Assembly (NCBI GenBank): GCA_025057575.1
Contig: JANXBO010000007.1
Coordinates: 1-64,000 of the forward strand
Origin: Candidatus Caldisaccharidevorator malaysiensis
Lineage (GTDB): Bacteria > Armatimonadota > Fervidibacteria > Fervidibacterales > Fervidibacteraceae
Direction: 5' to 3'
Length of the DNA: 64,000 nt
In this document: piece by piece, positions 39,519 to 43,101 of the stretch
Position numbering within the stretch: position 1 is the first letter of the stretch
How the letters are laid out: each line of letters opens with the position of its first letter
The notes under the pieces: generated by a model
Database searches by the model: none
What the model was told of the DNA's origin: nothing
The model's input: the letters and a program-made list of their open reading frames with translations, nothing else
Made by a program: the position numbers and the translations under genes

Positions 39519-41465
39519 ATGAGAAAACCCTGTTGGCTACTGCTGATTTCTATTGCCCTGACTTGTCGTTTGTCCCTCGGGCAGACCCAACGGGTTACCT
39601 TCCTGCTGACAGCCTCCCCGCCTCAATTGACGGCAGACGGCAAGAGCACTGCCACCATTACCGTCCGAGTGGATGACCCGACAGTGCCCGAAGGGACAAC
39701 GGTCCACTTTACCAGCAGTCTGGAAGATACGGTTATAGATCCGCAGCAGACGCTGAAAAGGGGCGTTGCCAGAGCCACATTGCGGGCAGGAAGGACCGCT
39801 GGGGTGACGATCGTCACGGCTTTTTTCGGCACCTCGCGTCAGTCAATAGAGGTGCAAATCCTACCGGTAGGCGTTCCGGTGAGCCGGGAGACGCAGGCGA
39901 TCCATTTAGAGGGCGATTATGTGGCTTATTCGCCAACCCATCGTTTTGTCGCCGGGGGCGGGCGGATGCGGCTGGTGACAAGGGGATGGGAGATCGTTAG
40001 CGACGTTCGTCTAGACCTGTGGTTGGACCAGGAAGTGTGCGTTGCCGAGGGTCAGCCAGGGGAGAACAAAGTCACCTTAAGCAACGGTCAAAAGACCATA
40101 CGAGGGGATCGCCTGATTGCCGATCTGAGCCAGCAGATGGCGATCCTCATTCAGGTCACACCGAGACCGCAGAGAATCGTGGTGAAAGGAATTTCCCTCC
40201 AGGAACAGGTGGATGACCGGGAAACGGACATCGCCGAGCCGCTGGCACCGACCGACATCAACATCCAGTGGATCCGCGGAAAGTCCCTGGACTACTACCC
40301 CAATGAGCGATTGATCATTAGAAGGGCTCAGATTTATACCCGAGGAGCAAAGGTCGTCAGTCTACCGATCTATGTGGAGAACTTAAGTGGCTATGCTGCT
40401 TCCAGAGGTTTTACTCCCGGATCGCCCCTTCAAGGTCTCAGCCTGACGGCGTATGGTGGACTTCAGTTGGACAGCCCGGTTTACTATCGGGCGGATCGGA
40501 CGGGGACAGGAGCCGTGAGACTTCAATATTTCGGACGGGGCTTCGGCTATTTGAGACCCGGTCCGACCCTTTCCATTGAAGAACAATATGTTCTCGGTGA
40601 TCGGGGGCAGATGGAAGGGGCTTTCCTCCTGGAGCAGATCACCCGAGGGGACTGGGGCATCCGATGGCAGCACTTCCATCGGTTTGGCGCTGGGCAGGCG
40701 ACTTTGTTTGTAGATATGCCAAGGCATAAAGACCTTTTTGCCCGACTGGGCTTTCACAGCAGCGGCGACAGGTTGGGCTACGGTGTAGAAGCCAACTACG
40801 ACAAACCAAAAGGATTCCCGTCCAGTCACGGGATTCGGGCTTTTGCCTATATGCCTGGTGGTCCGATCGGGAGGACAGGACTCACTTACAGCCTCGCCGG
40901 TGCCTTATCTTATCAACCGAACTCGCCCGGACTTCCCCAATGGTCCTGGGCAGCCGATTGGAACCTTAATCTCCCCACTTACCAGAGTCGTGCTTTAGGG
41001 CAACTGACGGGGCAGGTGGGTCTGTCTCTTGTCGGGCTGGGGGGCAATTGGTCTTTCCCTTGGCAGGTTAGCGGTTCCCTTAGCCGGTCTCTGGGCAGGA
41101 TGGGCACCCTGGGAATTAGTTACAACCTGGATCGGGGACGGAATTTATGGGGCATAAGAAATCGGGTTTCGGAGACGCTGTCCACCTATTTGTGGTTGAC
41201 GCCGGGCAAGCGGTGGCGGATAATGGGGAACGCCTCTCTTTACCTAAAGGGTGGGGGCAAATATGCCAGTTTGTATGCCGTTCACCAATTAAAAAGAGGG
41301 TGGAGTCTGGCGGTGGATCTGACTCATCAAGGATATTCCGGATTTACCTTCACCGACTACGGTCTTCGGCTGGCAAGGGAGATCGGGGGCGGTCTGGAGG
41401 TTTCCTTAAACTGGTATCGGTCCCGGCGGCGCCCTTACTTGGAAGTCGGTATGGCTCGTTTCTGA
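39519..41465 (+). CDS. OstA/LptD-like outer-membrane beta-barrel with N-terminal Big_1-type domain
   Basis: 648 residues. A signal peptide (about 5-21) is followed by one Big_1-like Ig domain (about 25-110, SPPQLTADGKSTATITVRV), an OstA-type beta-jellyroll (about 125-245: AIHLEGDYVAYSPTHRFVAG, RLIADLSQQMAIL), the linker RGKSLDYYPNERLIIRRAQI that resembles the start of LptD-type barrels, and a long run of alternating aromatic and Gly-rich beta strands to the C-terminus. The last residue is Phe (MARF), the usual barrel-assembly signal. The OstA-then-barrel order resembles LptD, but the barrel is short and the Big_1 domain is unusual, so its cargo could be something other than LPS. GGAGAGGAACG precedes the ATG. 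Confidence 0.65.
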   Translation: MRKPCWLLLISIALTCRLSLGQTQRVTFLLTASPPQLTADGKSTATITVRVDDPTVPEGTTVHFTSSLEDTVIDPQQTLKRGVARATLRAGRTAGVTIVTAFFGTSRQSIEVQILPVGVPVSRETQAIHLEGDYVAYSPTHRFVAGGGRMRLVTRGWEIVSDVRLDLWLDQEVCVAEGQPGENKVTLSNGQKTIRGDRLIADLSQQMAILIQVTPRPQRIVVKGISLQEQVDDRETDIAEPLAPTDINIQWIRGKSLDYYPNERLIIRRAQIYTRGAKVVSLPIYVENLSGYAASRGFTPGSPLQGLSLTAYGGLQLDSPVYYRADRTGTGAVRLQYFGRGFGYLRPGPTLSIEEQYVLGDRGQMEGAFLLEQITRGDWGIRWQHFHRFGAGQATLFVDMPRHKDLFARLGFHSSGDRLGYGVEANYDKPKGFPSSHGIRAFAYMPGGPIGRTGLTYSLAGALSYQPNSPGLPQWSWAADWNLNLPTYQSRALGQLTGQVGLSLVGLGGNWSFPWQVSGSLSRSLGRMGTLGISYNLDRGRNLWGIRNRVSETLSTYLWLTPGKRWRIMGNASLYLKGGGKYASLYAVHQLKRGWSLAVDLTHQGYSGFTFTDYGLRLAREIGGGLEVSLNWYRSRRRPYLEVGMARF

Positions 41466-41471
41466 CCGGTC

Positions 41472-41500
41472 TTGACGGGGCTGGGAGGTTGTGCTAACAT
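41472..41500 (+). promoter_or_regulatory. Sigma70-type promoter of the structured RNA
   Basis: TTGACG (41472-41477) and TAACAT (41495-41500) are separated by exactly 17 bases, five of six and four of six matches to the consensus. It starts 6 bp after the stop codon of the barrel gene, and its expected start near 41508 is just upstream of the first stem of the RNA. This is the best-looking promoter in the window. Confidence 0.6.
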
Positions 41501-41507
41501 TGGGGTT

Positions 41508-41706
41508 GGTCGGGGACGGAAGGTTCCGGCTGAAGGGAGGGTCAAGTGCCTGACCGCCGGTCGTGACCGGAAGCACGAAGGATAGGGACCGTCAGGTCTG
41601 GTCATCGCCACCGAGGACCTGGCACCCCAAAACCCCGGTGCCCGGAGGTTGCTGTGACAGGGGCAGCCGGCACCCTGAGTTCAGGCACCTCCGGGCACTC
41701 TTTTTT
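41508..41706 (+). ncRNA. Unassigned structured RNA of about 200 nt
   Basis: No convincing reading frame covers this gap. Pairing by hand gives a closing stem GGTTCC/GGGACC (41522-41527 with 41585-41590), hairpin 1 GGTCA/TGACC (41540-41544, 41551-41555; loop AGTGCC), hairpin 2 CCGGT/ACCGG (41557-41561, 41566-41570), and a possible pseudoknot between GTGC in loop 1 (41546-41549) and GCAC (41573-41576). Downstream are a hairpin AGGTC/GACCT (41594-41598, 41616-41620), a stem GGCACC/GGTGCC (41621-41626, 41637-41642) and the terminator, which competes with that stem for the same GGTGCC. A promoter and a terminator bracket it, so it is probably a stand-alone RNA, though a leader of the prepilin mRNA is possible. 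It lacks the SRP, tmRNA, RNase P and cobalamin signatures. Confidence 0.6.
41638..41706 (+). terminator. Intrinsic terminator of the structured RNA
   Basis: A perfect 12-bp stem, 41638-41649 with 41687-41698, encloses a small branch (CCTGAGTTCAGG hairpin and GCTG/CAGC) and is followed by TC and six T. The stem begins inside GGTGCC, which also can pair with GGCACC at 41621-41626, so an alternative fold would disrupt the terminator. Confidence 0.75.
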
Positions 41707-41844: not shown

Positions 41845-42654
41845 ATGGGGCGCAAGGCGTTTACCCTGATTGAACTGCTCGTCGTGATCGCGATCATCGC
41901 GATCCTGGCCGCCATTCTCTTCCCAGTCTTTTCCCAGGCACGGGAAAAGGCCCGTCAGGCAACCTGCGTCAGCAATATGAAGAACATCGGGATGGGTCTG
42001 AACCAGTATGTTCAGGACTACGACGAGTCCTTTCCGGCGGAGCGGACTCCCTGTTGGAACGGCTGGGCGACAAGCCGTAATGCGCTGATGTGGTTTGAGC
42101 AACTGGAGCCTTACCTGAGGAATTTTGATGTTCTGCGGTGCCCAACCGCCCGTTATGAGTGGCAATGGCGCGCGAACTGCTTCCCTAGTCACGGCAATCA
42201 CACCTTATTCAAGCGACCCAACAGACGGGTCAATTACGGCTTCAATGAAGCCCTTCACAATTCCCATTCCTTTCCCGACGGCAGCGGTGATCCCTGGGGA
42301 CGCTCATTCGGCAAACTTGCTGGAATGAGATTTCCTGCAGACGTCGCGGTCATCGCAGACAACTGGAACAGCTTTTTGACCCCGTGGGCCGAGGACAGGA
42401 CCTCCCGTGTTAATGTGCGGATTGCCTTCGCCAACGGAAACCCGGGGGACTTTGGAATGTGCGGATGCCCTGCAAACATTGCCGACCGCGCCTCTGATAG
42501 CCAGAAGGAGAACTGGCCTCGTCACCTTGCTGGAGCCGTGATCACCTTCGCCGACGGGCACGCCAAATGGTATCGCTGGCAAAATATCAAATCCACCCGA
42601 TACGGAGGACCAATGCGGTTCGGACCGACCCATGCGGGCTGGGATGACGAGTAA
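41845..42654 (+). CDS. Type IV/II prepilin-like protein (DUF1559-like), methylated N-terminus
   Basis: 269 residues from the ATG at 41845, which follows AGGAGGT by 8 nt; an in-frame ATG 30 codons earlier gives a frame without a leader and is rejected. The start [20 protein letters not shown] is a type III prepilin leader (cleavage between the Gly/Ala and Phe region, Glu at +5), then [20 protein letters not shown] and [20 protein letters not shown]. The C-terminal part has [11 protein letters not shown], the usual H-x-D-G-like block of the DUF1559/H-X9-DG group. This type is abundant in Armatimonadota, Planctomycetes and relatives as pseudopilins or surface proteins. No prepilin peptidase or assembly gene is in the window. 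Confidence 0.9.
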
Positions 42655-42667
42655 GGAGGGCTAAGGG

Positions 42668-42859
42668 GTGCAGAAGGAGATTCCCGTCTGGTTAGCCGTT
42701 GTCGTCATCGTTGTGGTTGTTGTGATTGCCGGTCTGATCTATATCCGTGCGGGGAGTCGCCAGGAAGGCGGCGTCGGTGGTCAGCCACAGATGGCGACAG
42801 CGGCACCCCCCGGTGCCGGTATGATCCGCCCGCAGCAACCGCCTCAGACGCCTCAGTAA
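42668..42859 (+). CDS. Small membrane-anchored Pro/Gln-rich protein
   Basis: 63 residues, GTG start with AAGGAGGGCTAAGGG upstream. One hydrophobic helix (residues 7-25, VWLAVVVIVVVVVIAGLIYI) is followed by a Gly/Pro/Gln-rich tail ending PQQPPQTPQ. It starts 13 bp after the prepilin stop codon and before a terminator, so it is co-transcribed with the prepilin. No known family is recognised; the arrangement suggests a helper or a short anchored partner. Confidence 0.65.
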   Translation: MQKEIPVWLAVVVIVVVVVIAGLIYIRAGSRQEGGVGGQPQMATAAPPGAGMIRPQQPPQTPQ

Positions 42860-42879
42860 AGGCGCCAGAGACCTCAGGA

Positions 42880-42913
42880 GGGACGCCGTTCCGACGGTGT
42901 CCCTCTTGTTCTT
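42880..42913 (+). terminator. Intrinsic terminator after the prepilin pair
   Basis: GGGACGCCGT, loop TCCG, ACGGTGTCCC (42880-42903) forms a 10-bp stem with one G-T pair and is followed by a T-rich run CTCTTGTTCTTT. It closes the surface-protein and prepilin region before uvrB. Confidence 0.7.
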
Positions 42914-43101
42914 TATGATGAGCAGCGAGATGATTTAGTCCTTTTGTCGGCTCGTAATTTCTTGCTCGTAATGATCCAGAAAGACGTTACCACTACCCTA
43001 ATCGGACCCTCCGCCTGAAAGACGCTTGTTGGGAAAAAGCGAAAGAAAAAGCCATAGCGCCCGAAAAGGAGAAGAGGCAAAATCGTTCTTGTGACCAATT
43101 T

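Follow-up and report, generated by a model that had tools for sequence, protein, structure and literature searches.

In the window analysed here, a stretch of DNA of 64,000 nucleotides, the region at positions 41472–41706 lies between two genes and has the look of a small-RNA gene. The upstream gene, which encodes a protein of 648 aa with an N-terminal Ig-like domain (Invasin_D3), ends at 41465, and the downstream gene, a DUF1559 prepilin, starts at 41845, 139 bases past 41706. These positions agree with a sequence-only reading of this DNA, which had placed the region just after a gene that it called an outer-membrane-barrel gene and 139 bp before a prepilin gene. The same reading had claimed a TTGACG-17-TAACAT promoter, and these elements are indeed present on the plus strand at 41472–41500: TTGACG at 41472–41477, a 17-nt spacer and TAACAT at 41495–41500, with TG preceding the −10 element. 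At the other end of the region, the 12-bp terminator followed by six T that it described can be located precisely; 41638–41649 pairs with 41687–41698 to form the outer stem of an extended hairpin (P4), and then come TC and the six T (41701–41706). RNA polymerase would start at about 41507, as placed from the −10 element, and would stop in the T run, giving a predicted discrete transcript of ~200 nt on the plus strand (41507–41706).

Could the region instead be coding? The absence of a reading frame, also part of the sequence-only reading, holds up: there is no ATG frame in the region, and the longest internal frame, a GTG frame of 51 codons, has no recognisable ribosome-binding site. A small-peptide gene was rejected on these two grounds. 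The opposite strand folds well (z = −2.7) because P4 is palindromic, and a gene on that strand was rejected as well, since the stem there has no T run after it.

Taken alone, the promoter, the terminator and the fold are weak, and it is conservation that gives them significance. For example, two promoter-like sites were found in the window versus 1.7 expected by chance, and promoter-like and terminator-like sites are about as frequent in the window as in shuffled sequences. The fold of the whole region, for its part, is just modestly better than those of shuffled sequences (z = −1.7), and the domain upstream of the terminator shows no gain in stability over shuffles (z = 0.2). A DNA search of 61 genomes, on the other hand, returned homologues from each of the three further family genomes (E = 4.6e-17, 1.9e-13 and 7e-7) and no other credible location; G013 has a 26-base match. 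The four family genomes, which represent two genera of Armatimonadota, are that of the window (G000) and G001, G002 and G003, whose homologous loci are L003, L002 and L004, respectively. A control intergenic region of similar size (42655–43101) had no homologue in the family genomes, and its best foreign match had E ~0.1. With a covariance model of the 3′ half of the RNA, each family genome gives a single copy, besides the reverse matches expected from the self-palindromic sequence of the RNA. In the sister family (G004) the RNA is absent, with no covariance-model match and nothing after the barrel gene of that genome. The phylum-wide covariance-model search took in 291 genomes, and two weak matches from it were rejected, L013 for lying inside coding genes and L014 because it is a perfect, GC-rich hairpin that lacks a T run. 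Among GTDB 220 genome contigs, the conserved-block pattern occurs only in the Armatimonadetes MAGs SKYB58 and SKW126, both of which are already among the family genomes, and a search of viral contigs for the RNA gave no match.

Conservation extends to the promoter, whose elements and exact spacing recur at the three homologous loci. All four family genomes have TTGACG, a spacer of exactly 17 nt and GTTGYGYTA (a −10 element of the form TANCNT with GTTGYG before it), so that the motifs point to a promoter that would belong to the RNA itself. A scan of the family genomes with this pattern gives mismatch-free sites at the RNA in all four and one extra site, in G001; this additional exact copy (L050, minus strand, ~1501–1530) lies upstream of a reading frame, and a scan of the site for tRNA and Rfam families gave no match.

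What structure would such an RNA adopt? Minimum-energy folds run separately on the four sequences agree on three elements, and the conserved structure accordingly modelled consists of the extended terminator hairpin P4, a hairpin P3 and a short closing helix P1, all on the plus strand in the window. P4 (41638–41698) continues inward from its outer stem through a UG/GC internal loop and CUG/CAG to CAGGG/CCCUG, and its stability far exceeds that of shuffles (z = −4.0 to −9.9, with −4.0 for the copy in the window). The outer stem has two clean compensatory pairs, 41639–41697 and 41645–41691, the changes being U-A to C-G and G-C to A-U, and each of the four genomes has a T run after P4; stem, T run and compensatory changes together are what one would expect of an intrinsic terminator. 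In G003 (L004 776–936, minus strand) a long hairpin insertion of 17 bp takes the place of the P4 apex, an indication that the apex is dispensable or hypervariable.

The helix P1 joins CGGGG (41511–41515) to 41633–41637 in the minimum-energy folds of the window, L002 and L004, and is register-shifted in L003; its strands, CGGGG and CCCCG, are invariant across the homologues, and P1 is hence without support from covariation. P3, which the folds place beside the 3′ strand of P1, pairs GUCAGGUC (41591–41598) with GACCUGGC (41616–41623) at eight of eight positions; the stem has 10 bp in the three relatives and 8 bp in the window, where two pairs are gone from both sides. Directly after it comes a C-rich block, ACCCCAAAACCCCG (41624–41637), which contains the 3′ strand of P1 and is kept across the four genomes. 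Between P1 and P3, the homologues differ in both length and content, and the 5′ two-thirds of the RNA is likewise variable in length; conservation peaks in the terminator, a generic element, which counts against reading the region as a small RNA. Over the four sequences, 90.6% of cells are paired versus 34–54% for slid versions, and five pairs are changed on both sides, a number matched by 23 of 500 shuffles; as it comes from four sequences, of which three belong to one genus, this covariation is thin, suggestive rather than strong. The evidence for P3 is a register set by hand; MAFFT misplaces P3 of the window by the missing pairs, and for that reason the counts for individual pairs of P3, its single both-sides change among them, cannot be relied upon. 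We also considered an H-type pseudoknot, GGGGU/ACCCC with GGGUUU/AAACCC, drawn from the conserved GGGGTGCGGGTTTT block of L002–L004, and preferred the nested P1 because in two genomes the pseudoknot would have just one loop base to span a 5-bp stem.

The fold proposed by the sequence-only reading fared differently from its promoter, its terminator and its RNA gene, which are well supported. For neither its three-way junction (41522–41527/41585–41590) nor its GTGC/GCAC pseudoknot do we see a counterpart in the homologues, and both are absent from the minimum-energy fold. It had further suggested that an upstream stem (GGCACC/GGUGCC) competes with the terminator stem for the same GGUGCC. The other three genomes carry GGCGCC in place of GGUGCC, so that one of the six pairs with the upstream GGCACC is lost, while the terminator partner of this site changes from A to G and the terminator pair is kept. 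In other words, the change that breaks the one stem is compensated in the other, and this contradicts the competition.

If the RNA is conserved, is it a gene of its own or part of a neighbour's transcript? In G000, G001 and G002, it follows the same outer-membrane-type gene; in G003, this gene, with no RNA behind it, lies on a different contig, and the RNA (L004) is found between a divergent upstream gene and a convergent NHL-repeat gene. (In G002, L002 1–1300, the outer-membrane-type gene gives two separate matches; the sequence between them contains unresolved bases and a change of frame and is probably an assembly gap.) With a divergent gene upstream and a convergent one downstream, the RNA of L004 can be neither a leader nor a 3′ UTR, and the change of neighbours in G003 argues for an independent gene rather than a leader of the prepilin gene. 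No neighbouring gene is fixed, as is the case for trans-acting small RNAs, and the RNA is not found consistently upstream of a regulated gene on the same strand, as a riboswitch or other cis-acting leader would be. We thus give hardly any credence to a leader, either a riboswitch or an attenuator, that acts in cis on the downstream gene: its appeal lies in the 139 bases to the prepilin gene and in the prepilin gene that is also downstream in L003, but the RNA is followed by a URO-D-family gene in L002 and by the convergent gene in L004, a context that contradicts it, and the competing stem is not conserved. There is likewise only a slim chance that the outer-membrane-type gene upstream simply has a conserved terminator here and that the other elements are fortuitous. 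Such an explanation would account for P4 being the best conserved part and for three of the four copies following the same gene; it does not sit well with the copy in G003, which is away from that gene and behind a divergent one, with the promoter conserved in four of four genomes between gene and terminator, or with the conservation of P3 and the C-rich block.

Comparison with catalogued RNAs bears on another alternative. An Rfam scan of the window returned only a tRNA, with no family at gathering score for 41472–41706; a permissive scan of the region, down to E = 10, gave chance matches on the other strand only, and the homologues, scanned in the same way against Rfam, matched no family. The sequence-only reading, which could not match the region to SRP, tmRNA, RNase P, 6S or the common riboswitches, was correct in this respect, and the SRP, tmRNA and RNase P RNAs of G000 are located elsewhere in that genome and not at the locus. 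The RNA could in principle be a highly diverged 6S or Ms1-like RNA, putatively binding RNA polymerase. Its size and gene organisation, with a promoter and terminator of its own, are similar; 6S RNA (RF00013) has no match in the five genomes of the class (G000–G004), even at E = 10, while it is matched in six of eight other genomes of the phylum; and Ms1 RNA sets a precedent for 6S-like RNAs that are longer and have extra end hairpins (PMC9130861). However, even with E values up to 10 allowed, the 6S model does not match the locus, and the single-sequence folds do not form a rod with a large central bubble, P3 being a separate hairpin that adjoins P1. Moreover, G007 and G011 are also without a 6S match, which means that such an absence is not rare in the phylum, and the sister family lacks both 6S and the candidate RNA. 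We consider the chance of a diverged 6S or Ms1-like RNA small, and put no higher the related idea of a lineage-specific RNA-polymerase regulator, different in architecture, that replaces 6S in this Armatimonadota family.

The comparative evidence thus favours, as the sequence-only reading had it, an RNA of ~200 nt that has no assigned family and is equipped with a promoter and a terminator of its own. We put at about 0.82 the probability that 41472–41706 is a real small-RNA gene, single-copy, independently transcribed, non-coding and, in the genomes searched, restricted to the family; this figure is for the gene and not for any antisense action. Very probably it is a lineage-restricted gene of an ordinary kind without a counterpart among catalogued RNA families. 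Bacterial trans-acting small RNAs resemble it in having their own promoter, no reading frame, a single intergenic copy, an intrinsic terminator and unfixed neighbours; the candidate differs from them in having no Rfam match and in a terminator hairpin that is unusually long and conserved in sequence. It is also like the terminator stem candidates described previously (PMC11109978), in which one strong covarying hairpin is followed by a U run, but it additionally conserves a promoter, a second hairpin and a C-rich block, and its gene context changes. A text search of one literature library for Armatimonadota with structured noncoding RNA or 6S RNA found no relevant paper, and small RNAs of this phylum appear to be almost unstudied. 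The candidate gene is well delimited and has a conserved promoter, and it occurs in a class without detectable 6S RNA.

As for function, the small RNA would act in trans, with P4 serving as a stabilising terminator. Our tentative proposal, which we hold at somewhat less than even odds even if the RNA is real, is that it would regulate other mRNAs by antisense pairing. The seed would be the C-rich strand before P4 (ACCCC...ACCCC), normally held in P1, and the targets would be G-rich leaders. The conservation of the C-rich block, in spite of the loss of one of its internal partners from the window, is consistent with a base-pairing seed; a search for GGGGTG/GGGTGC partner sites near the starts of 48 long frames in the window found none. 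Protein binding is the main alternative to antisense pairing, albeit a somewhat less likely one, and a mode of action like that of 6S is improbable. A CsrA sponge was rejected, as the GGA motifs vary among the homologues.

A separate conserved element came to light in two of the relatives. In G002 and G003, a leader of ~110 nt precedes an ammonium-transporter gene (PF00909; L057, minus strand, ~1390–1530, and L060, 1501–1640), and it is 85% identical between the two genomes, promoter included. The leader has no match in Rfam. It contains a GGGCAACGRAGCCC hairpin whose GCCC is also part of a terminator stem, AGCCCUUUGACC/GGUCAAAGGGCU-UUUU, and by its sequence it looks like an attenuator or riboswitch.
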